Origin: Deltaproteobacteria bacterium
Lineage (GTDB): Bacteria > Desulfobacterota > Desulfobaccia > Desulfobaccales > 0-14-0-80-60-11
Assembly (NCBI GenBank): GCA_016874915.1
Contig: VGSW01000018.1
Span: forward strand, 1 to 35,469
DNA length: 35,469 bases
Direction of reading: 5' to 3'
In this document: one piece after another, positions 2,488-11,421 of the stretch
Numbering within the stretch: position 1 is the stretch's first letter
Layout of the letters: each line of letters opens with the position of its first letter
Program-made: the position numbers and the translations under genes
The notes under the pieces: generated by a model
Databases searched by the model: none
Told to the model about the DNA's origin: nothing
The model's input: only the letters and a program-made list of their open reading frames with translations

Positions 2488-3309
2488 CTACGATACACCC
2501 GCCTTCAAAATCTCCGGCTCTGCCGCCGCGTCTCCCGACAGCGGCAGCATCACCCCATAAAGCCGGCCGGACAAAGGATGCCGGGCCACTTCCATGGGCG
2601 TCTCAAAAACCGCCGACAATATCTCTGAGGTAAAAACCAGTTCCGTCGCCCCGTCTTCCACCATCCGGTCATCCTTCAGGATAATGAGGCGCCGGCAGTA
2701 CATGGCCGCCAGGTTTAAATCGTGGATGGCGCAAAGCACCGTGAGGTTTTTCTCCCGGTTGAGCGCCTGGCACAGTTCAAAGATTTCCAGTTTCTTGCGC
2801 ACGTCCAGGCTGGAGGTGGCCTCGTCCAGCATCAGGATGTCCGGCTCCTGGGCCAAAGCCCGGGCGATGACCACCCGTTGGCGCTCCCCGCCGGAAACTT
2901 CCGTCACCAGTCGGTCCTGCAAGTGCTCCGTGGTGGTCTGGCGCATGGCCCGAAGCCCGGCCATCAGGTCTTCCGGGGTCAGGGTCCCCAGGCGCCGCCG
3001 CCGGGGATAGCGCCCCATGAGCACCACTTCCATGCAGGAGAAGGGAAAACGGATCTCGTTGCTCTGGGGCACCACCGCCATGGTCTGGGCGCGAACGCGG
3101 CTGGCCACGGACTGCAAATCCTGCCCGTTAAGCTCGATGGCCCCGGCTTGGGGCGGCAGCAGGCCCGCCAGGGCGTTGACCAGGGTGGACTTGCCGCTGC
3201 CGTTGGGGCCCAGGATGCCCACAAATTCCCCCCGATCCACCTGAAAATTCAGGTCTTCCAGAACGGCGCGGGCGCCGTAGCCTAGGGAGAGCGCCTTTAC
3301 CCGGATCAC
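2488..3309 (-). CDS. btuD: ABC transporter ATP-binding protein of cobalamin importer
   Basis: Cytoplasmic ATPase powering the BtuC-type permease. It is 273 residues long, with Walker A GPNGSGKSTL, signature VSGGERQRV, Walker B ILMLDEATSSLD and a switch histidine in CAIHDLN. The frame is open far upstream, but that part overlaps the permease in another frame. The GTG at 3309 overlaps the permease stop (GTGA), a standard translational-coupling arrangement, and gives the usual family start (IRVKALSLGYG). It is the second gene of the importer operon. The C-terminus ends at a TAG supplied by an intergenic palindrome. Confidence 0.92.
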   Translation of the reverse strand: MIRVKALSLGYGARAVLEDLNFQVDRGEFVGILGPNGSGKSTLVNALAGLLPPQAGAIELNGQDLQSVASRVRAQTMAVVPQSNEIRFPFSCMEVVLMGRYPRRRRLGTLTPEDLMAGLRAMRQTTTEHLQDRLVTEVSGGERQRVVIARALAQEPDILMLDEATSSLDVRKKLEIFELCQALNREKNLTVLCAIHDLNLAAMYCRRLIILKDDRMVEDGATELVFTSEILSAVFETPMEVARHPLSGRLYGVMLPLSGDAAAEPEILKAGVS

Positions 3310-4394
3310 CACACCCCCCGGCCCTTGCGGGTTTTGAGGAGATAGAAGAAAAAGGGGCCGCCCAAGAGCGCGGTCACCACCCCCACGGGCAGCTCCTGGC
3401 CCCCCGGCAGAATCACCCGGGACAGGACGTCGGCCCAGATGAGGGTGAGCCCGCCGGCCAGGGCCGCCAGGATAAGCAGCCGCCCGTGAGACGGCCCCGC
3501 CAAAATGCGGATGAGGTGGGGCACCACCAATCCCACAAAGCCGATGACCCCGGACACCGACACCGCCGCGGCGGTGAGCAGGGACGCGGCCAGCAGCAAT
3601 TGGAGCCGGGTGCGGGACACCGCCACCCCCAGGTAATGGGACTGTTCTTCCCCCAGGGCCAGGATGTCCAGCTCCCGGTAGTTCAGGGCCGCCAGCACCA
3701 AGCCCGCCAGCCCGTAAGGGAGCAGAAACCCCACATGCACCCAGCCCCGGCCGGAAAAACTGCCCATGATCCAAAAGACGATAGCCGACAGCGACTCTTC
3801 GTCCAGGCTTTTAATCAGGCTGATAAAGGCCGACAGGAAGGTGCTCACCACGATGCCCGCCAACACCAAAGACTCCTGGCGGATGCGGCCTTCTTCCCGG
3901 GACAGAATGAGCACCGCCACCAGCGCGGCCAACGCCCCGGCCAGGGCCCCCAGCGGCAGGGCGCTAAGGCCCCAAAAGGCTCCTTCTATGCCGAGGACAA
4001 CCAACAGCGCGGCGCCGAAGGCCGCGCCGGTGGACACCCCGATGGTAAAGGGGTCGGCCAGGGGATTGCGCAGCAGACCCTGGAAGATCACCCCCGCCCC
4101 GGCCAGGCAGGCCCCCACCAACGCCGCCAGCACCGCCCGGGAGAAGCGCAGGTGAAAGACGATCACTTCCCCGGTGCGGTCCAGGGTAAAACTGCTTAAA
4201 CCTATTTTATTCAAAAATGCCTGGGCGATTTCCCCCCACCCCAAATCCAATCGCCCGATGGCGGTGGCCAACCCGATGGACGCGGCCAGGGACAGGCCCA
4301 GGACGGCCAGGGTCACGGCAAAGCGCCTGGACCCGGCCCGGCGCCGGTCCCAGGTCTCCTGGATTTCCAGGGCGGAGAGTTCTTCTGCCTTCAT
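3306..4394 (-). CDS. btuC: FecCD/BtuC-family permease
   Basis: Inner-membrane permease of a B12 or siderophore-type importer. The 362-residue protein has many hydrophobic segments and family blocks such as RAVLAALVGACLAGAGVIFQ, RNPLADPFTIGVSTGAAFGA, and GVIGFVGLVVPHLIRIL (the loop that contacts the ATPase). The N-terminus carries about 20 polar residues before the first membrane segment. The ATG at 4394 follows a CCGAAAA-type heptamer array (about 4402-4438), and no strong Shine-Dalgarno sequence is visible. It is translationally coupled to btuD. The 600-nt distance from cbiK means it may have its own promoter. Corrinoid specificity is inferred from the neighbours. Confidence 0.9.
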   Translation of the reverse strand: MKAEELSALEIQETWDRRRAGSRRFAVTLAVLGLSLAASIGLATAIGRLDLGWGEIAQAFLNKIGLSSFTLDRTGEVIVFHLRFSRAVLAALVGACLAGAGVIFQGLLRNPLADPFTIGVSTGAAFGAALLVVLGIEGAFWGLSALPLGALAGALAALVAVLILSREEGRIRQESLVLAGIVVSTFLSAFISLIKSLDEESLSAIVFWIMGSFSGRGWVHVGFLLPYGLAGLVLAALNYRELDILALGEEQSHYLGVAVSRTRLQLLLAASLLTAAAVSVSGVIGFVGLVVPHLIRILAGPSHGRLLILAALAGGLTLIWADVLSRVILPGGQELPVGVVTALLGGPFFFYLLKTRKGRGVW

Positions 4395-5004: not shown

Positions 5005-5877
5005 TTACTGCTCACGGCTCACTTTTTTCAAGGCCCCGGCCAGGTGGTCCAGGTAAACCTGGATGATCCCTTCCTGATAACCCAGCCCCCGGTCACCAGC
5101 CTGAATCTTGTAAGCTTTGTGCTTCAGGAGTTCCGATTTCCAGCTCTCCGGCTCGTCCCCCATGATGTCTTTGGCCATGTGTTCTCCGGCCACGAACAGG
5201 AAGGGGATGAACAGCACGGCCTGGGCGGAGGACACTTTGACTCTAGACAATGCTTCCTCCCGGGTGGGCTTACCAGCCACCACTGCCAGGTAGACCTGCT
5301 GCTGGGGGAACCGCTGGCGCAGCAGTTCCCCGAAGGCCAGGTATTCCCCCTCCCCCTTGGGATGGGGGCTGCCGTGCCCCACCAGCACCACCGCGTTCTG
5401 CTTTAAGTCCTGGGGAAAATTGGGTTCCAGGGCCTTGAGGACCCGCTGCCGATCTTCCGGGGAAGTCAAGAGCGGCGGGCCTAAGGCCACCTGGAGGCCG
5501 GGGACGCTTTTACTTTCCCTTACAACCTCTTCCCACTCCTCCCCCGGCACTACGTGGAGGGATTGGACCGCGACCCTGGCAAAGCCCGCGGCCTTGAGGC
5601 CCTGAAGCGTCTGGGCCAGGTCCTTTAAATCCCGGCCCTGCTCCTTTTTCACCTTGGCCCGCACTTTCTGCGAGGTGAAGGCCCAGCGCACTTCATGGCC
5701 GGGAAACCGCTCTTTGACCTTTTTGTCGAAATAATCATAAGTGGCTACGGCCGGGGTGCTGGTTCCGAAGGCCACCAGCACGATGGCCGGCTTGGCCGCG
5801 GCTGCGGCAGAAACCGCGGGCATTGCCGGAACCAGAACAAACAGCAACAACCAGAATCTCAGGAACAGGCGCATCAT
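5005..5877 (-). CDS. cbiK: Sirohydrochlorin cobaltochelatase CbiK with signal peptide
   Basis: Inserts Co2+ into sirohydrochlorin early in anaerobic cobalamin synthesis. The 290-residue protein has CbiK-type motifs: IVLVAFGTSTP, SLHVVPGEEW, VLVGHGSPHPKGEGEY, and FLFVAGEHMAKDIMGDE, with histidines in positions expected of metal and catalytic ligands. Residues 1-27 form a clear signal peptide (positively charged start, LLLFVLVP core, AVSA cleavage region), so the mature enzyme is probably periplasmic, as known for one of the two CbiK forms in Desulfovibrio. GGAGG lies 5 nt before the ATG at 5877. It is the first gene below the cobalamin riboswitch and terminator, so expression should fall when cobalamin is plentiful. 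The stop codon lies inside a heptamer array. Confidence 0.92.
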   Translation of the reverse strand: MMRLFLRFWLLLFVLVPAMPAVSAAAAAKPAIVLVAFGTSTPAVATYDYFDKKVKERFPGHEVRWAFTSQKVRAKVKKEQGRDLKDLAQTLQGLKAAGFARVAVQSLHVVPGEEWEEVVRESKSVPGLQVALGPPLLTSPEDRQRVLKALEPNFPQDLKQNAVVLVGHGSPHPKGEGEYLAFGELLRQRFPQQQVYLAVVAGKPTREEALSRVKVSSAQAVLFIPFLFVAGEHMAKDIMGDEPESWKSELLKHKAYKIQAGDRGLGYQEGIIQVYLDHLAGALKKVSREQ

Positions 5878-5988: not shown

Positions 5989-6049
5989 GCGACTGCCGGG
6001 GTCCAGCCGACAGTCCGCGGGGCCGCAGTCACTTGCGCTGCGAAATCAT

Positions 6050-6222
6050 CCGCGCCGGTCTGGGCAGGTCTTCTGGCTCCCGGATCCTCCTACTCCCTGC
6101 GCCTTCCCATCTCGCTAAAAGAAACAGTGGCCAGATGCAGGTTTCGTCCCCGGTCACAGCGGCGGGACCGCGACGGCTCTCCGTCTTCCCTATTAAACCC
6201 GAACGGTACCCAGACGGTTTGG
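6050..6222 (-). ncRNA. Cobalamin riboswitch aptamer
   Basis: Reading the minus strand gives the conserved cobalamin riboswitch blocks in order: TTAATAGGGAA, a P5/P6 stem (GACGGAGAGCCGTC), CGGTCCCGCCGCTGTGACCG, GATGGGAAGGCG, and the B12 box GAGCCAGAAGACCTGCC. Closing arms TCTGGG and CCCAGA form P1. It lies upstream of cbiK and the importer genes, which is the expected target set. Ligand class (adenosyl- versus aquocobalamin) cannot be read from this. Confidence 0.93.
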
Positions 6223-6226
6223 TGAA

Positions 6227-6256
6227 ATCTTAGCCAAAGGCGGCGTGGTTTGTCAA
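6227..6256 (-). promoter_or_regulatory. Sigma70-like promoter of riboswitch transcript
   Basis: TTGACA (6256-6251), an 18-nt spacer and TAAGAT (6232-6227). The predicted start near 6220 falls right at the beginning of the aptamer. Confidence 0.7.
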
Positions 6257-6304: not shown

Positions 6305-7123
6305 CTAGATTTCTACTCCCAGCGCTCTATAAGCCGCCCTTGCCATAACGTCTACTGGAGCGGTCTGGCCAGTCCACATCTCAAACTGGGCCGCGCCCTG
6401 GTGGATGAGCATTTGCAGGCCGTCAATGGTCCGGCAGCCCCGGGTCTTAGCCTCCCGCAAAAGCCGGGTTTCCAGGGGCCGGTACACGATGTCCATGACC
6501 AACTCGAACCGGTCCAAAAGCTGCGGTTCTAAGGGAATGGCCTCCGCTTCCGGCGCCAGGCCCACCGGGGTGGCGTTGATGAGGACCGCGGCCGGGTACT
6601 CCTCCAGACGGCCGGGAGAGACCACCTCCACCCAAAATTCCCGGGATAAGGCCAGGGCCTTGGCTGTATCCAGGTCGGTGACGGCCGCCTGCCCCCCCTT
6701 TTCCAGGATGGCGAAGACCATGGCCCGGGCCGCGCCCCCGGCCCCCAGGATGAGAAAGCGCTTCCCGGCTATTTCAACCTTTTCCTCCAGGGCCTTGAGC
6801 GCGCCCAGCCAGTCGGTGTTGTAGCCGATGAGCCGTTCCTCCCGGCGCACCACGGTGTTCACCGCGCCCATGCGGGCCGCCTGGGGGTCAAGTTCATCAA
6901 TCAGGGGGATGATCTCTTCCTTAAAGGGGATGGTGACGCTCACCCCCTGGATGCCCAGGCCCCGGAGCCCCGCCACCGCCTCTTTCAGGTCCGTCACCGG
7001 GAAGGCCGCATAGACCGCGTTGATCCCCAACTCCCGGAACGCGGCGTTGTGCATGGCCGGGCTTAGAGAATGGGCCACGGGCCGCCCCAGGATGCCGTAG
7101 ATTTGGGTATGGGCGTCAATCAT
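6305..7123 (-). CDS. aroE: Shikimate dehydrogenase
   Basis: Reduces 3-dehydroshikimate to shikimate. The 272-residue protein has the substrate-binding blocks HSLSPAMHNAAF, GVSVTIPFKEE (catalytic lysine), AVNTVV and YNTDWLGAL, then a Rossmann motif LGAGGAARA near residue 126. After the second strand the usual NADP-binding N-R-T sequence is replaced by VTDLDTAKA. An aspartate at that place is more typical of NAD-preferring family members, so cofactor use may differ (inference). It is the last gene of the aromatic operon; a 96-bp palindrome ends 5 nt below aroD and begins 10 nt above this start. No terminator is visible after it, and the next feature downstream is the riboswitch promoter. Confidence 0.93.
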   Translation of the reverse strand: MIDAHTQIYGILGRPVAHSLSPAMHNAAFRELGINAVYAAFPVTDLKEAVAGLRGLGIQGVSVTIPFKEEIIPLIDELDPQAARMGAVNTVVRREERLIGYNTDWLGALKALEEKVEIAGKRFLILGAGGAARAMVFAILEKGGQAAVTDLDTAKALALSREFWVEVVSPGRLEEYPAAVLINATPVGLAPEAEAIPLEPQLLDRFELVMDIVYRPLETRLLREAKTRGCRTIDGLQMLIHQGAAQFEMWTGQTAPVDVMARAAYRALGVEI

Positions 7124-7132
7124 AAAATATTA

Positions 7133-7228
7133 TTAACCGCAGATGAACGCAGATATTTTCTCGTGCCCAAGTTTGGGCACGAGAAAATAAATATCAATCT
7201 GCGTTTATTGGCGTTCATCGGCGGTTAA
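7133..7228. repeat. Nested palindromic element between aroD and aroE
   Basis: The outer arms TTAACCGC and GCGGTTAA, with imperfect GATGAACGCAGAT/ATCTGCG-type continuation, enclose a perfect inner hairpin ATTTTCTCGTGCCCAA / TTGGGCACGAGAAAAT. Same two-level architecture as the elements at 11336, 12843, 16644 and 25598, with different arm sequence. Confidence 0.75.
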
Positions 7229-7231
7229 ACA

Positions 7232-7963
7232 TCATTTCGTCAGTAGCCGCCATAGGCGGTGTAGTTTGTTTATGGTGATTTGCCCAGGAGCCGAGGCCCC
7301 TCTTTTGCTGAAAGGCGCAAAAGTCAGGAAGCTCCCCAATAGCGGCGCCGCCACTCGGGACCACATGCCCAGCGGCCCCATGCAGAACGCAATGATCTCC
7401 CGCCCTTGGGCCTTTGCCTTTGGGATGAGGGACAGAACCCGCAGGTTGTCTTCCGGCTTCCGGGCCAGGGTGACCATCTTGACCACCTGGGCCTCTGCGG
7501 CCACCATTTCTTCCAGGACCGCCTCCAGCCTCCCGGACTCCGGGGTGCCGTCAAAATCATGCCAGGAGAGGATAATTCCGGCGGCGCCCCGACGCCCTGG
7601 CAGCTCCCGCCGCCAAGCCGCATCCACCGCCAGTTCCACGTCCAGGAAGTCCACCCCGTAAGTCAGGCATTCTTCCAATAGCGCTAAACGCTCAGCTTCC
7701 GCCCCGGCCCATTGCCCACCCTCTTCCCGCCGGCGGTTGGTGGCGATGACCGGCCCAGGCCGGGTGCGGAACAGCCGCGGCAAGTCCGGCTTCTCCAGAT
7801 AATCCAGGCGCATCTCCGTCCACAGGCCCCGCCGCGCCGCCCGCAGGTAGAGGCCCCGGGCGCGGTTGACCGTGGTTTCCACCACCGGCACGCAGATGCG
7901 CAGAGGGTTGGGAGACTCTGTTTTCTGTTTTCTGTTTTCTGTTTTCTGTTGTTTTTCTGTCAT
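7232..7963 (-). CDS. aroD: 3-Dehydroquinate dehydratase, type I
   Basis: Dehydrates 3-dehydroquinate to 3-dehydroshikimate by a Schiff-base mechanism. It is 243 residues long. Catalytic residues are visible as H135 (ILSWHDFDGTP) and K162 (VVKMVTLARKPEDN), with the substrate block EMRLDYL near residue 50. Residues 1-20 (beginning MTEKQQKTENRKQKTES) are not part of the enzyme fold. They are the translation of a CAGAAAA heptamer array, and true family homology starts around LRICVPV. The ATG at 7963 has only weak upstream complementarity to 16S rRNA; a GTG in CVPV would be the alternative start. Fourth gene of the operon, 123 nt after pheA. Confidence 0.9.
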   Translation of the reverse strand: MTEKQQKTENRKQKTESPNPLRICVPVVETTVNRARGLYLRAARRGLWTEMRLDYLEKPDLPRLFRTRPGPVIATNRRREEGGQWAGAEAERLALLEECLTYGVDFLDVELAVDAAWRRELPGRRGAAGIILSWHDFDGTPESGRLEAVLEEMVAAEAQVVKMVTLARKPEDNLRVLSLIPKAKAQGREIIAFCMGPLGMWSRVAAPLLGSFLTFAPFSKRGASAPGQITINKLHRLWRLLTK

Positions 7964-8088
7964 CCGAATCCCGGCTCACTGATTAAGCGTGGTTAAGAAT
8001 ATAGTTCGGCAGCCATTAATCTCACATATAGCTAACCAGAGGCCCTCTCCGATTTTCACAGAAAACAGAAAACAGAAAACAGAAAACT
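7917..8088. repeat. Inverted heptamer arrays flanking the pheA-aroD junction
   Basis: TGTTTTC units repeat about four times at 7917-7953, and the complementary ACAGAAA units repeat about four times at 8056-8088, in inverted orientation around a 100-nt core. The first array codes for the AroD N-terminus, and the second begins at the pheA TAG stop. The two arms could pair in the transcript. Confidence 0.8.
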
Positions 8089-9172
8089 ATCCTAAAACCT
8101 CCACCCCCGGCGCCTTGGGGAAGGAACCCAGCAGCTTGAAATGGGCGCTGATGGATTCTATTTCTTCCAGGGCCGGGCGCACCTGGGGGTCTTCCCGGTG
8201 ACCGTCCAGGTCCACGAAGAAGAGGTAGCGCCAGGCCTCGTTCCTGGCCGGGCGGGAAACAATACGGGTCATGTTGATGCCCCGCTCCGCCAAGGGCCGC
8301 AGGGTATGGTATAGGGCGCCGGGGACGTTGTCCACCGCAAAAATGATGGAAGTCTTGTCGTGCCCCGTAGGTCCCGGAGTATGGGAGCCGATGACGAAGA
8401 AGTGGGTGACGTTTCCCGGGTTGTCTTCGATGCGCCGCTCCACCACCCGCAGATCATAGAGAGGCGCCGCGAAGGCTGAAGCGATGGACGCGGCGTTGGG
8501 GTTTTTGGCAGCTTTCTGGGCCGCCATGCCAGTGGAGCCCACTTCGATGATAGGAACCTCGGCCATGCGGGTGGCCAGCCAGCGCCGGCATTGGCCGTAG
8601 GCTTGGGGGTGGGTGTAGATCACCTCGATGTCCTGGCGCTGCCCGGATTTGGACAAGAGGTCGTGGGAAATCTCCAGGAAGATCTCGCCGCTGATTTTAA
8701 GAGAGGTTTCGGCAAAGAGGTCCAAGGTGACGTTAACCACGCCTTCGGTGGAATTCTCGATGGGCACCACCCCATAGTGGTACTTTCCCTTTTCCACTTC
8801 GGTGAAAACTTCCTGGATGGTGGCCAGGGGGCCGAAGCGGGTGGCCCGGCCGAACTTTTTCAAGGCTGCCAGGTGGGAAAAAGTGGCCTCCGGCCCCAGG
8901 AAGGCCACCCCCAGGGGGGCCTGGATTTCCCGGGCCGCGGAGATAACCTCCCGGAAGATGTTGCGCAGGGCCGCGGGGGTCAGGGGGCCGGGGTTAAGAT
9001 GCATCAGGTGGGCCAGGACTTCTTCCTCCCGTTGGAAATCCAGGGTCCCCTCCCCTTCTCCTTTTTTAATCCGGCCGATTTCCCGGGCCAGGGTCATGCG
9101 GCGGTTCAGGAGTTCCAGGAGTTCCCGGTCCAGGGCGTCAATTTGCTGGCGAATCTGTTCTTTTTCCGTCAT
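8087..9172 (-). CDS. pheA: Chorismate mutase / prephenate dehydratase (P-protein)
   Basis: Bifunctional enzyme of phenylalanine synthesis, 361 residues. Residues 1-90 are an AroQ-type chorismate mutase (IRQQIDALDRELLELLNRRM). Residues 92-270 are prephenate dehydratase (VAFLGPEATFSHLAA, GVVPIENSTEGVV). Residues 280-355 form an ACT regulatory domain with GALYHTL and a VSRP version of the ESRP phenylalanine-binding motif. The dehydratase motif usually written TRF reads THF here (NPGNVTHFFVIG): the catalytic threonine is kept, but the arginine is histidine. The start lies 3 nt after the preceding gene, with a GGAG inside that gene's last codons, so it is probably translationally coupled. Full length. 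Confidence 0.93.
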   Translation of the reverse strand: MTEKEQIRQQIDALDRELLELLNRRMTLAREIGRIKKGEGEGTLDFQREEEVLAHLMHLNPGPLTPAALRNIFREVISAAREIQAPLGVAFLGPEATFSHLAALKKFGRATRFGPLATIQEVFTEVEKGKYHYGVVPIENSTEGVVNVTLDLFAETSLKISGEIFLEISHDLLSKSGQRQDIEVIYTHPQAYGQCRRWLATRMAEVPIIEVGSTGMAAQKAAKNPNAASIASAFAAPLYDLRVVERRIEDNPGNVTHFFVIGSHTPGPTGHDKTSIIFAVDNVPGALYHTLRPLAERGINMTRIVSRPARNEAWRYLFFVDLDGHREDPQVRPALEEIESISAHFKLLGSFPKAPGVEVLG

Positions 9173-9175
9173 GGT

Positions 9176-10174
9176 TCATTTCTCCAGGATGGTTTCCTGG
9201 ATCTTGTGGCCGAAATGGCGGCCGGCTTCTTCCAGGGCGGCCAGCACCTTATCACCCGGCTGCAAGCTCACGATGGACACCGCTTCGCCGCCGGGACGGG
9301 TGAGGCGGATGGTTTCCGCGTTCTGGAGGATGGTGGTGATTTCCCGGCCCTCGGCTTCCGCGGCCACCAGCATCAGGGGGCGGCGCTCCACCTTGACCCG
9401 GCCCACCACCGCGGTCGCGGTGCGGCCCTCATGGTTGACGATGAGCACCTCGTCTCCGGCCTTCAGTTCCCCCAGGTACTTGGTCTTGGCGGAGCTTACC
9501 CGGATATAGGCGTGCACCGGCCCGGCATTAACCCTAAAAGGCCGGGGCGCCACGTAGGGGGTCTTCAGAGACTCGGCGTGCACCAGAAACAGCCCCCCGG
9601 AGGAGTTGCCCACCAGCATGCCTTCTCCCAGGCCCATGTTGGTGCAGGTGTCCACGCAGACCCGGTCGCCCATGCCCAGGGGCTCTATGCGGGTGATGCG
9701 GGCTTCCGTCAGTTCCAGGGCCGGGGAAGCCTCCTTCACCAGTCGGGCTATCTCTTTGATAAGCCCGGGACTGGACGCGGTGGCCACCAGCCCGTCCACC
9801 CCTTTCTCCAGCACCCCCAGCAGCATGCGGGCCGACTGGACGTCCTCGGCCTGAGCGAAGAGGTTTCCGTTTCCGGTCCGGGCCACCAGGTTCTCCAGGG
9901 GGATAACGGTCCAGTCGGTGGTGTGCACCACCACCGGCCCGGTGCGGGCCAGGCGCACCACTTCCTCCTCATCCTGGGAGCCGGTAATGGTGACCTCGCG
10001 CAGGTCCTTTCCGGGAACCAGGTCGCCGTCGGGGGCGATGATCGTGATGAGGCCCAGGGCCTTGACTTCCCCGGCCCGGCCTTCCGGGACCCACACCGCG
10101 TCCGCGCCGCTTTCCAGGGCGGTGGTCACCAGTTTCTTATCCCAGGGGTCTATCTTGACCCAAAGCTGCTTCAT
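9176..10174 (-). CDS. aroB': 3-Dehydroquinate synthase II (archaeal-type, AroB')
   Basis: NAD-dependent enzyme converting ADTH to 3-dehydroquinate, the second step of the alternative early shikimate pathway known from methanogens and some Desulfobacterota. It is 332 residues long. The family is recognised from MKQLWVKIDPWDKKLVTTALE, GADAVWVPEG, ITRIEPLGMGDRVCVDTC, and GGLFLVHAES. An AAGGA stands 7-8 nt before the ATG at 10174. Its partner, ADTH synthase, is directly upstream and pheA directly downstream, which supports the pathway reading. It is unrelated in sequence to classical AroB. Confidence 0.92.
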   Translation of the reverse strand: MKQLWVKIDPWDKKLVTTALESGADAVWVPEGRAGEVKALGLITIIAPDGDLVPGKDLREVTITGSQDEEEVVRLARTGPVVVHTTDWTVIPLENLVARTGNGNLFAQAEDVQSARMLLGVLEKGVDGLVATASSPGLIKEIARLVKEASPALELTEARITRIEPLGMGDRVCVDTCTNMGLGEGMLVGNSSGGLFLVHAESLKTPYVAPRPFRVNAGPVHAYIRVSSAKTKYLGELKAGDEVLIVNHEGRTATAVVGRVKVERRPLMLVAAEAEGREITTILQNAETIRLTRPGGEAVSIVSLQPGDKVLAALEEAGRHFGHKIQETILEK

Positions 10175-10191: not shown

Positions 10192-10272
10192 AGAGCGGTT
10201 TAGCGGTTCGGCGGTTTGGCCATTAACAAAAAATTGCCAAACCGCTAACCCGCTAACCCGCCAAACCGCAAC
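10192..10272. repeat. Heptamer-derived hairpin between ADTH synthase and DHQ synthase II
   Basis: GCGGTTTGGC (10211-10220) and GCCAAACCGC (10236-10245) make a perfect 10-bp stem with a 15-nt loop. The stem extends imperfectly outward through GCGGTTTA-like and TAACCCGC-like 7-nt units on both sides. There is no T-run, so it is not a convincing terminator. Confidence 0.7.
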
Positions 10273-11070
10273 TCACATCGCCTGCAAGAACGACAACGCC
10301 TCCTCCACCCCCACGTTTTCATGTACCAGCAGGCTCATGGCCCCCACCATGCGGGTGGGGTCCCGGTGCTGGAAGACGTTGCGGCCGATGGACAGCCCCG
10401 CGCCCCCGGCCTCGATGGAGCCCTTCACCATCTCCAGGATCTCCCGGTCCGAGCTCATCTTGGGACCCCCGGCGATGACCACCGGCACCGGGCAGCCCAT
10501 CACCACTTCCCGAAAAGATTCCACCGAGCCGGTGTAGGAGACCTTGATGATGTCCGCGCCCAGCTCCGCGGCCAGCCGGGCCACGTGCTTGATGACCCCC
10601 ACGTCGTATTCGTCTTTGATCTTCTCGCCCCGGGGGTACATCATGGCCAGCAAGGGCATGCCCCAGTCCCGGGCCTCCCGGGCCACCCGGCCCAAATCAG
10701 CCAGCATCTCCCTTTCCGAGCCGTTGCCGATGTTGATATGGATGGAGATGGCGTCGGCTCCCAGCTTGATGGCCTCCTCCACGGTGCACACCAGGGTCTT
10801 GGCGTTGGGGTAAGGGGAGAGCGCGGTGGACCCGGACAGGTGAATGATGAGGCCCACGTCTTTCCCTCGGCGGCGGTGGCCGCCTTCCACCAGGCCCTTG
10901 TGAATGACGATGGCGTTGGCGCCGCCCGCGGCCACCTTGTTGACCATGTCCTTCATGTCAATGAGGCCCTGAATAGGCCCCACCGTGACCCCGTGGTCCA
11001 TGGGGACGATGACGGTGCGCCCGGTTTCCCGGTTCATGAAGCGTTCCATGCGAATGAGTTTGCCAACCAC
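10273..11070 (-). CDS. aroA': 2-Amino-3,7-dideoxy-D-threo-hept-6-ulosonate synthase (ADTH synthase, AroA')
   Basis: Class I aldolase-type enzyme making ADTH, the committed entry to the archaeal-type shikimate route in place of DAHP synthase. Aldolase motifs visible: [11 protein letters not shown] (D25, H26), [11 protein letters not shown], and the Schiff-base lysine K176 in [12 protein letters not shown]. An open frame continues 28 codons further up, but I start it at the GTG at 11070. That codon follows GGAGGAGG by 5 nt and gives the usual family N-terminus ([11 protein letters not shown]); the upstream extension is proline/arginine-rich and overlaps the leader terminator. 265 residues. It is the first structural gene below the Tyr/Phe leader attenuator, so it is the main point of control. 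Confidence 0.92.
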
Positions 11071-11124
11071 TTTTTCCTCCTCCCGCGGCCTCCCTGGATT
11101 AGCAGACGACCCCGGCCCGAAACG

Positions 11125-11161
11125 AAAAAGCCGTGGCCGCCTCGCCGGCGCCACGGCTTTT
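11125..11161 (-). terminator. Attenuator terminator upstream of aromatic operon
   Basis: AAAAGCCGTGGC and GCCACGGCTTTT form a 12-bp stem with a 12-nt loop, ending in five T (11129-11125). It sits 22 nt after the leader-peptide stop and 55 nt before the ADTH synthase start. A nested competing helix can form: transcript 11212-11201 with 11144-11135, and 11199-11189 with 11167-11157. That pairing uses both arms of the terminator. Confidence 0.85.
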
Positions 11162-11182
11162 AAAAGATTTTCTTACTCTGGG

Positions 11183-11266
11183 CTAAAGTCTTTTAAAAGT
11201 CGAGGCGCGGCCCAGGCCCGTAAAATAATAGTAGCTAAAATAATAATAGCGGGACCAGGGGAGCAT
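11183..11266 (-). CDS. Tyr/Phe-rich leader peptide of the aromatic amino acid operon
   Basis: A 27-codon ORF starting at ATG 11266 with GAGGA seven nt upstream and ending with TAG at 11183. The peptide begins MLPWSRYYYFSYYYFTGLG: eight of nine residues in the central block are tyrosine or phenylalanine, and a Trp precedes it. Its place between a strong promoter and an intrinsic terminator matches classical ribosome-stalling attenuators (as in E. coli pheA, pheST and trp). The Tyr/Phe codons lie at 11248-11222, so a ribosome stalled there would leave 11212-11189 free to form the antiterminator. A ribosome reaching the stop codon would cover that segment and let the terminator fold. The role is inferred; the sequence elements are directly visible. 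Confidence 0.85.
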   Translation of the reverse strand: MLPWSRYYYFSYYYFTGLGRASTFKRL

Positions 11267-11288
11267 TCTTTCTTCCTCGACTAGGTAA

Positions 11289-11317
11289 TTCTTAAATAAA
11301 CCTGTTTGGTATGTCAA
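11289..11317 (-). promoter_or_regulatory. Promoter of leader and aromatic operon
   Basis: TTGACA (11317-11312), a 17-nt spacer and TAAGAA(T) (11294-11289). The start site would fall near 11281, just ahead of the leader ribosome-binding site. Confidence 0.7.
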
Positions 11318-11335
11318 GAAAAAATTCGCAATCTT

Positions 11336-11421
11336 CTCACGCAAAGGCGCAAAGATTAAGATAAGTTTAAGAGCCACGGCCTTAGCCGTGGCCCTTGAAA
11401 ACTTGGCGTCTTGGCGTGAAG
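11336..11421. repeat. Nested palindromic element (GGCGCAAAG family)
   Basis: The outer arm CTCACGCAAAGGCGCAAAG (11336-11354) faces CTTGGCGTCTTGGCGTGA (11402-11419). The inner hairpin is GCCACGGC, CTTA, GCCGTGGC (11373-11392). The rest of the interval from 11422 to 11521 shows only an ACACCTG-type heptamer array (about 11493-11523) abutting the hemC stop. Confidence 0.75.

Follow-up and report, generated by a model that had tools for sequence, protein, structure and literature searches.

A probable Tyr/Phe leader-peptide attenuator before an archaeal-type shikimate operon in Desulfobacterota

How does an anaerobic bacterium that enters the shikimate pathway by the alternative, archaeal-type route adjust transcription of the entry genes to its supply of aromatic amino acids? 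The question is raised by a leader region on the minus strand of a 35,469-nucleotide stretch of DNA (herein referred to as the window), which is contig 18 of a 3.7-Mb genome assigned to a Deltaproteobacteria bacterium and whose closest named relatives carry the record labels Deltaproteobacteria, Syntrophales, Syntrophobacterales, Desulfobacca and similar. The leader region sits between a hemC-type gene, which lies upstream in the same direction, and an operon that begins with ADTH synthase. An earlier interpretation made from the letters of the window (the sequence-only reading) had proposed a Tyr/Phe leader-peptide attenuator here, composed of a TTGACA promoter element, a GAGGA ribosome-binding site, a 27-codon ORF, a stop codon and a 12-bp terminator with a T5 run ahead of ADTH synthase, and all of these parts were located where it had placed them (table 1).

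Table 1. Coordinates of leader, attenuator and operon features in the window
Feature	Position	Strand	Basis or remark
-35-like hexamer TTGACA	11312..11317	-	consensus scan: 1 found in 900 bp, 0.4 expected
-10-like hexamer AAGAAT, spacer 18	11288..11293	-	consensus scan, weak match, putative start
Segment 1 AGTCGAGG, holds leader Shine-Dalgarno	11275..11282	-	can pair with 11205-11198
Shine-Dalgarno GAGGA of leader ORF	11274..11278	-	7 nt 5' of ATG; sequence
Leader peptide ORF MLPWSRYYYFSYYYFTGLGRASTFKRL, 27 codons + TAG	11183..11266	-	ORF translation and relatives
Regulatory codons TAT TAT TAT TTT AGC TAC TAT TAT TTT	11222..11248	-	Tyr x3, Phe, Ser, Tyr x3, Phe
Segment 2, outer antiterminator arm GCGCC	11204..11208	-	TGCGCC in most aligned relatives
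Segment 2, inner antiterminator arm CTTTTAAAAG	11190..11199	-	lost in L047, L049, L050, L053
Leader stop codon	11185-11183	-	
Segment 3, inner antiterminator arm CTTTTAAAAG	11157..11166	-	overlaps terminator 5' arm
Segment 3, outer antiterminator arm GGCGC	11148..11152	-	overlaps terminator 5' arm
Intrinsic terminator, stem AAAAGCCGTGGC / GCCACGGCTTTT	11125..11161	-	T5 run 11129-11125
ADTH synthase (2-amino-3,7-dideoxy-D-threo-hept-6-ulosonate synthase), GTG start	10273..11070	-	TIGR01949, 383 bits, cut-off 299
3-dehydroquinate synthase II	9176..10174	-	NF002627, 479 bits, cut-off 392
pheA, chorismate mutase / prephenate dehydratase	8087..9172	-	NF008865, 272 bits, cut-off 219
aroD, type I 3-dehydroquinate dehydratase	7232..7963	-	TIGR01093, 140.0 bits, cut-off 139.3
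aroE, shikimate dehydrogenase	6305..7123	-	NF001319, 315 bits, cut-off 252

Judged by its profile matches, the operon would supply shikimate-pathway intermediates and, via pheA, a phenylalanine precursor, a content that matches the leader codons. ADTH synthase most likely starts at GTG 11070; a longer ORF from 11154 would begin inside the terminator. The terminator stem joins 11161-11150 to 11137-11126 around a 12-nt loop and was not listed by the terminator scanner because the scanner admits loops of 3-8 nt; as four T of the T5 run are paired with AAAA, the stem comes down to A4:T4 and eight GC-rich pairs, leaving a short free U-tract. The folding energy of the leader region taken as a single sequence is unremarkable (z -1.04). 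A full TTGACA is present in 12 of the 24 rows of alignment A1 (all rows of the window's group, with the end of L035, missed by the pattern, set by hand), and the remaining rows start inside or past that position.

With its YYYFSYYYF run the leader peptide, as predicted by translation, reaches eight aromatic residues in ten, whereas none of 200 dinucleotide shuffles of the window's 450 nt reaches seven (the highest value, six, was seen twice). Among the 76 loci with at least 300 nt upstream of ADTH synthase, window included, 63 reach at least 7/10, against 3/750 dinucleotide-keeping shuffles and 4/76 reverse complements. All 23 Desulfobacca-like named loci (L033-L055) have a leader at ≥5/10 and 21 of them at ≥7/10; for the other named loci (L056-L112) the count at ≥5/10 is 45/57. 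Five of the 12 exceptions have less than 200 nt upstream (L060, L066, L069, L072, L091), L060 and L069 starting inside a recognisable leader, and two more carry leader and tandem hairpins farther upstream (L084 at -477, L112 at -464), separated from ADTH synthase by a repeated unit of roughly 26 nt in L112 and by other DNA in L084. L056 has a possible leader at -506, the aromatic run of L081 (MAHNLSGKCYRYFF) is broken by an early TAG, which may be a sequencing error in a T-run or else mark a defective leader, and L059, L093 and L098 have no leader at 6/10 within 900 nt upstream.

Of the 297 genomes of the phylum searched at E 1e-60, 90 have ADTH synthase. From 100 matches listed we took the upstream DNA of 80, leaving out nine of the window's own family, G094, the partial matches G104 and G268, and the eight weakest. 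Half of these further loci (40/80) have a leader at ≥6/10, for which the shuffle background is 16/750, and 32/80 at ≥7/10; counted by family, a leader occurs in 16/30 further families at ≥6/10 and 14/30 at ≥7/10. The other 14 have none at ≥6/10 (f25 0/10 loci, f66 0/4), f47 has one in 1/5 loci, and none was found at that level in any of the six loci below 55% identity, which may be non-orthologues. The ADTH synthase genes of f25 (L173, L175-L183), which are without any aromatic leader, are preceded in 7/10 loci by an ORF of ~50 codons (VEELVSIDWTLAELV...YLNELLKVRG) that ends 31-46 nt before the gene.

The leader codons extend beyond those of the window. A Trp codon stands in or beside the run in 74 of the 107 leaders at ≥6/10 (from 161 loci, both sets pooled, with some genomes in both), so that the leader family reads Tyr, Phe and often Trp; the sole leader Trp codon of the window lies three codons before the run. 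In four relatives (L042, L044, L046, L051) the ORF shifts frame past the aromatic run (TGPGVRLDF) over an RNA that is nearly unchanged, which points to selection on RNA and codons. The leaders of L047, L049, L050 and L053 end short of segment 2; these loci have lost the CTTTTAAAAG arms and kept TGCGCC:GGCGCA.

The antiterminator in A1 is a nearly continuous helix of TGCGCC-TCGA-CTTTTAAAAG with CTTTTAAAAG-CCGT-GGCGCA, in which the inner loop itself contains one C-G and one G-C pair; in the window the outer helix takes the form GCGCC (11208-11204) with GGCGC (11152-11148). Over the 24 relatives 92.1% of cells are paired, a value that none of 500 shuffles attains and that falls to at most 56.4% when the helix is slid, and the outer arm in its six-pair form pairs in 140/144 cells. 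This helix takes up the terminator 5' arm, so the two exclude each other; the 12-bp terminator is paired in 93.1% of cells. The protector helix, an addition to the sequence-only reading, joins AGTCGAGG (11282-11275) to CCTCGACT (11205-11198), spans the whole leader ORF, includes the Shine-Dalgarno and is paired in 91.1% of cells. Covariation of the antiterminator is weak within A1 (four pairs with double changes, score 0.074; the slid version has five), and the Shine-Dalgarno and terminator helices show none above shuffles (score reached by 267/500). We rate the protector lower because it is conserved rather than covarying; the duplex of Shine-Dalgarno region and segment 2 has only a modest advantage over shuffles (in five loci, 10 to 101 of 500 were as low).

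The antiterminator described here departs in one respect from the sequence-only reading, which had paired 11199-11189 perfectly with 11167-11157 and, outside this, 11212-11201 with 11144-11135 across a 2-nt bulge. The inner pairing held (11199-11190 is perfectly complementary to 11166-11157). For the outer pairing the complementarity is real, but its role as the antiterminator's outer helix had to be given up: over the 24 relatives 71.4% of its cells are paired and several loops lack it, the window and L033 are the sole rows in which all ten pairs form, and wherever a folding scenario left its main six pairs unmasked their probability was 0.00. The full antiterminator built on it is paired in 79.9% of cells, against 92.1% for the GCGCC:GGCGC version. 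Its covariation is not worse (seven pairs with double changes, score 0.090, versus four and 0.074) and does not separate the two, so that the case for GCGCC:GGCGC rests on conservation and folding; most likely, this is the outer arm, and not a pairing with the terminator loop.

A second alignment (A2) comprises 34 of the 45 leader-bearing loci of L056-L112, whose sequence is unlike the window's; the other 11 (L070, L083, L086, L089, L099, L101, L102, L104, L105, L106, L107) were excluded by eye, before any count, because they have no second hairpin or are diverged. Segment 2 is here mostly GGTCTGCC and segment 3 mostly GGGCAGACC, the inner helix TGCGCT:AGCGCA becomes TGCGTT:AACGCA in several loci, and a protector, CAGGCAG:CTGCCTG, flanks the aromatic codons. 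The ON state is paired in 90.8% of cells with 12 pairs changed on both sides (at most 48.8% and nine pairs when slid; matched by 0/500 shuffles on four of five measures and by 3/500 on the number of further pair types) and the OFF state in 94.4% with 14 such pairs (at most 55.6% and six when slid; 0/500 on all five measures). These compensatory changes, as read from the aligned sequences, offer independent support for the alternative helices. The expectation that relatives would share a Tyr/Phe-rich ORF with alternative stems was thus borne out and the attenuator proposal survived it; covariation of the stems is clear in the 34 A2 loci and weak in the 24 rows of A1.

To relate these helices to translation, we modelled RNA as free once 13 nt past the start of the A-site codon and folded it to equilibrium. 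In the window, a ribosome with the last Phe codon (15) in its A site leaves the antiterminator at 0.90-1.00 and the terminator at 0.00; the terminator rises to 0.29-0.44 with Tyr codons 12-14 in the A site, to 0.56-0.65 for stalls at codons 7-10 (the first four aromatic codons), and stands at 0.94 with a ribosome at the stop codon and 0.93 without a ribosome. In the 24 relatives, a stall at the last aromatic codon brings the terminator to ≤0.10 in 14, and a stall at the run codon best for the antiterminator does so in 22, a choice of codon that favours the hypothesis; with the ribosome at the stop codon the terminator is ≥0.59 in all 24, and without a ribosome ≥0.64 in 22 (L039 0.30, L035 0.54). 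Switching is almost absent in L052 and L054 whatever the codon, and the antiterminator of L047 rises no higher than 0.34. The earlier idea that a stall on the Tyr/Phe codons frees the antiterminator and a ribosome at the stop codon blocks it therefore agrees with the folding, incompletely at the early codons and in L052 and L054.

We hypothesize, with high confidence, that a ribosome-mediated transcription attenuator sensing charged tRNA-Tyr and tRNA-Phe controls the ADTH synthase operon; conservation, mutually exclusive conserved helices and ribosome-position folding, all of them computational, support the original proposal in this respect. The locus combines the features of the class, namely an ORF of product codons, a terminator before the first gene, an exclusive and conserved antiterminator, the stall and stop geometry, and a matching operon. 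The DNA itself shows the promoter-like site and the Shine-Dalgarno, the aromatic ORF, the terminator and the conserved alternative pairings, and from them we infer the steps that lead from stall to readthrough. When Tyr- or Phe-tRNA is scarce, the leading ribosome would stall on the aromatic run (with the strongest effect at the last codons), cover segment 1 and leave segment 2 (GCGCC-TCGA-CTTTTAAAAGA) free to pair with the emerging segment 3 (TCTTTTAAAAG-CCGT-GGCGC); the terminator 5' arm would then be occupied and transcription would go on into the operon. When both amino acids are plentiful, the ribosome would reach the stop codon and cover segment 2, allowing the terminator to form, and in the absence of translation segment 1, with the Shine-Dalgarno, would pair with segment 2 and the terminator would likewise form. 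The weak -10 element, the short U-tract and the lack of a leader in some ADTH synthase lineages count against this mechanism. If correct, it provides a concrete control circuit for the alternative shikimate entry in a large group of anaerobic bacteria.

Other mechanisms could place a short ORF and a terminator ahead of such an operon. The ORF might encode an arrest peptide, TnaC-like, whose nascent chain senses free aromatic amino acid and for which codon supply is irrelevant; a conserved short ORF does precede the terminator, and arrest peptides are known as controllers of aromatic amino acid genes (tnaC). We consider this very improbable, given that the peptides have little in common across clades beyond aromatic richness, with Y, F and W in varying order, that within clades the peptide ends (CASTFKRP, TGLPGVR) coincide with RNA arms, and that the four frame-changing loci alter the end of the peptide and keep the RNA. 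The hairpin could instead terminate an upstream transcript from the hemC side, where a gene in the same direction is available, or act as a plain constitutive attenuator, with the ORF a chance product of T-rich DNA, which favours Phe codons. The shuffles given above (3/750 reaching 7/10, against 63/76 loci) make a chance ORF hard to accept, the antiterminator arms are conserved outside the terminator, and the leader stays with the hairpins despite the intervening DNA before the gene in L084 and L112, so that this explanation appears slighter still.

Least probable of all is a riboswitch or T-box that controls the terminator beside an incidental ORF. A premature terminator ahead of a biosynthetic operon would suit it, but the one element that Rfam places in the window at gathering threshold, a cobalamin riboswitch, lies 5 kb away, and lower Rfam thresholds gave nothing relevant over the leader. 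Weak matches near the leader (E 0.0026 to 4.8) involve sRNA, microRNA and viral models, fall far short of the gathering scores and are taken as chance matches to a long hairpin. Known leader families do not describe the attenuator either: none was found at gathering threshold in the window or the 10 relatives tested, with no match to Phe_leader (RF01859) in the window and a best score of 24.4 bits versus 55 in the relatives (L155), a best His_leader score of 29.7 bits versus 49 in the relatives (L128), and the trpB motif (RF04312; described in PMC11109978) absent from the window and at 32.2 (L125) and 29.1 bits (L128) versus 59 in the relatives.

The operons of relatives bear on what the leader reads. 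In all five relatives scanned, one each from f2, f36, f38, f48 and f85, DHQ synthase II follows ADTH synthase, the operons hold pheA, aroA, aroE, aroD, aroL and aroC in varying sets, and some hold a prephenate dehydrogenase-like gene below cut-offs. Three of the five carry Trp in the leader. That Trp codons go with trp genes in the operon was considered and rejected for these relatives, as no trp gene was named among the downstream ORFs scanned (part of each region); the Trp codons there thus fit control of the common pathway. In Desulfovibrio vulgaris the operon does continue into a trp operon (PMC1173090).

Relatives in several families differ from the window, which has a single terminator, in having two hairpins between leader and gene (the A2 loci and at least one locus each of f5, f15, f17, f34, f36, f48, f59, f72 and f85). 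CCACGGC, the 3' arm of the first hairpin, is the complement of GCCGTGG, the 5' arm of the second, and this 4:5 pairing is present in 97.3% of A2 cells, with three pairs changed on both sides. These computational results suggest a six-segment relay (ON, 2:3 + 4:5; OFF, 1:2 + 3:4 + 5:6), in which one ribosome position would decide both tandem hairpins through capture of the second hairpin's 5' arm by the freed 3' arm of the first; we hold the case for and against it to be evenly balanced. For RNA grown to the end of segment 5, the medians of the 34 loci are 1.00 for 2:3, 0.00 for 3:4 and 0.99 for 4:5 with the ribosome at the best codon, and 0.93 for 3:4 and 0.03 for 4:5 with the ribosome at the stop codon. 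With segment 6 added, the second hairpin wins at equilibrium even under a stalled ribosome (medians of 34: 5:6 1.00, 4:5 0.00, 3:4 back at 0.58), so the relay, if it works, must be kinetic. L064 and L080 fail to switch, whichever codon is occupied; in L062, L065, L082, L085 and L110 a ribosome at the stop codon does not keep 4:5 from forming (0.86-1.00). The alternative to the relay is a duplicated, partly constitutive terminator, which could possibly have come about by local duplication of one hairpin.

The first hairpin is without a U-tract, and the second alone is followed by one, in all four f36 loci (L117, L118, L120 and L126, from distinct genomes; L104 is a named copy of L126) and in L128, one of two f72 loci. 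Because the first hairpin there has no U-tract, the leader could govern termination solely through 4:5. L117, L126 and L128 clearly agree with this in nascent folding, and L118 less so; L120 does not fit, with 4:5 at 0.72 when the ribosome is at the stop codon. If true, the relay would be an unusual way for one stalled ribosome to control a terminator untouched by its own antiterminator. The chances are about equal, in our estimate, that the switch of the window is the simple form of an old and widespread Desulfobacterota aromatic attenuator of which the relay is one form.

We also considered whether GCCGTGG is a generic terminator stem of these genomes, which would make 4:5 trivial. In the 80 named loci (349,599 bases, mostly 2 kb to each side of the gene), every GCCGTGG-type terminator matched by pattern was upstream of ADTH synthase: 39 are on the sense strand within 450 nt upstream, and 31 matches on the other strand (among them one at -376 in L084) represent hairpins of this kind seen in reverse. 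As a bare word, GCCGTGG is ~2- to 10-fold commoner than composition predicts (window, L193-L198), which counts against specificity. In the window a hairpin (GGCCACGGCTAAGGCCGTGGC, about 11367-11395) with the GCCGTGG stem of the terminator and without a U-tract lies upstream of the promoter.

Ribosome-mediated attenuators of amino acid operons are known from Escherichia coli, where PheL precedes pheA and TrpL precedes the trp operon. The present locus resembles them in its short leader ORF of product codons, its mutually exclusive protector, antiterminator and terminator helices, and a stop codon at which a ribosome that completes the leader would block segment 2. It differs in belonging to another phylum, in that the ADTH synthase/DHQ synthase II pathway entry would be controlled, in a mixed Tyr/Phe run (in relatives often with Trp) and in a leader Shine-Dalgarno that lies inside the protector helix. 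Comparative predictions of attenuators have reportedly been made by Vitreschak and Gelfand and by Lopatovskaya and Lyubetsky. The ermK attenuator of Bacillus has two terminators. There, too, a ribosome stall in a leader ORF prevents termination, and its multiple terminators would resemble the tandem hairpins of the relatives; it differs in that stalling is drug-induced and the gene confers resistance, and in that the window has a single terminator (ermK is treated in PMC5418344).

The sequence-only reading had regarded the pairing of such an attenuator with ADTH synthase and DHQ synthase II as not known to be described, a statement that calls for qualification. We found no leader peptide for an ADTH synthase operon described in the literature searched (open-licensed papers, best matches of longer lists), and the available portions of PMC4833913 and PMC2965389 name none. 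A putative attenuator is, however, already tabled before aroA'-aroB'-aroQ-pheA-aroF-tyrA-[trp operon] of D. vulgaris (Song et al. 2005, Table 7; PMC1173090), an entry that in the available part of that paper consists of a table line and a short remark and derives from a prediction website. Attenuation ahead of these two entry genes had thus been predicted for a member of the same broad group; unlike for the present locus, that part of the paper gives no peptide, codons, antiterminator or conservation, and the word "leader" is absent from its main text so far as available. The uORFC-13-1 motif of Acholeplasma aroF (PMC8632094) likewise has an upstream ORF with phenylalanine codon(s) and then a terminator before the first aromatic enzyme; the likeness is one of description, and the gene is a DAHP synthase in other organisms. 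A 2013 survey of four Rfam leader motifs suggested that amino acid attenuators may originate in gamma-proteobacteria with very few transfers (PMC3766115), a picture with which an attenuator in many Desulfobacterota families sits uneasily.

Several minor features of the operon may be recorded. Just after aroE lies the cobalamin riboswitch (RF00174, 106.3 bits, window 6046-6228, minus strand), an unrelated RNA switch that adjoins the end of the attenuated operon; it precedes a gene for a CbiK-like sirohydrochlorin cobaltochelatase (5005-5877, scoring under the cut-off of its model) and one for a B12/siderophore-type transporter permease (3306-4394). By eye, long inverted repeats occupy the spacers between ADTH synthase and DHQ synthase II (~10193-10270), between aroD and aroE (~7150-7193) and between pheA and aroD (~7917-7965 with 8055-8090), the last of which seems to have extended the aroD start (TEKQQKTENRKQKTE).
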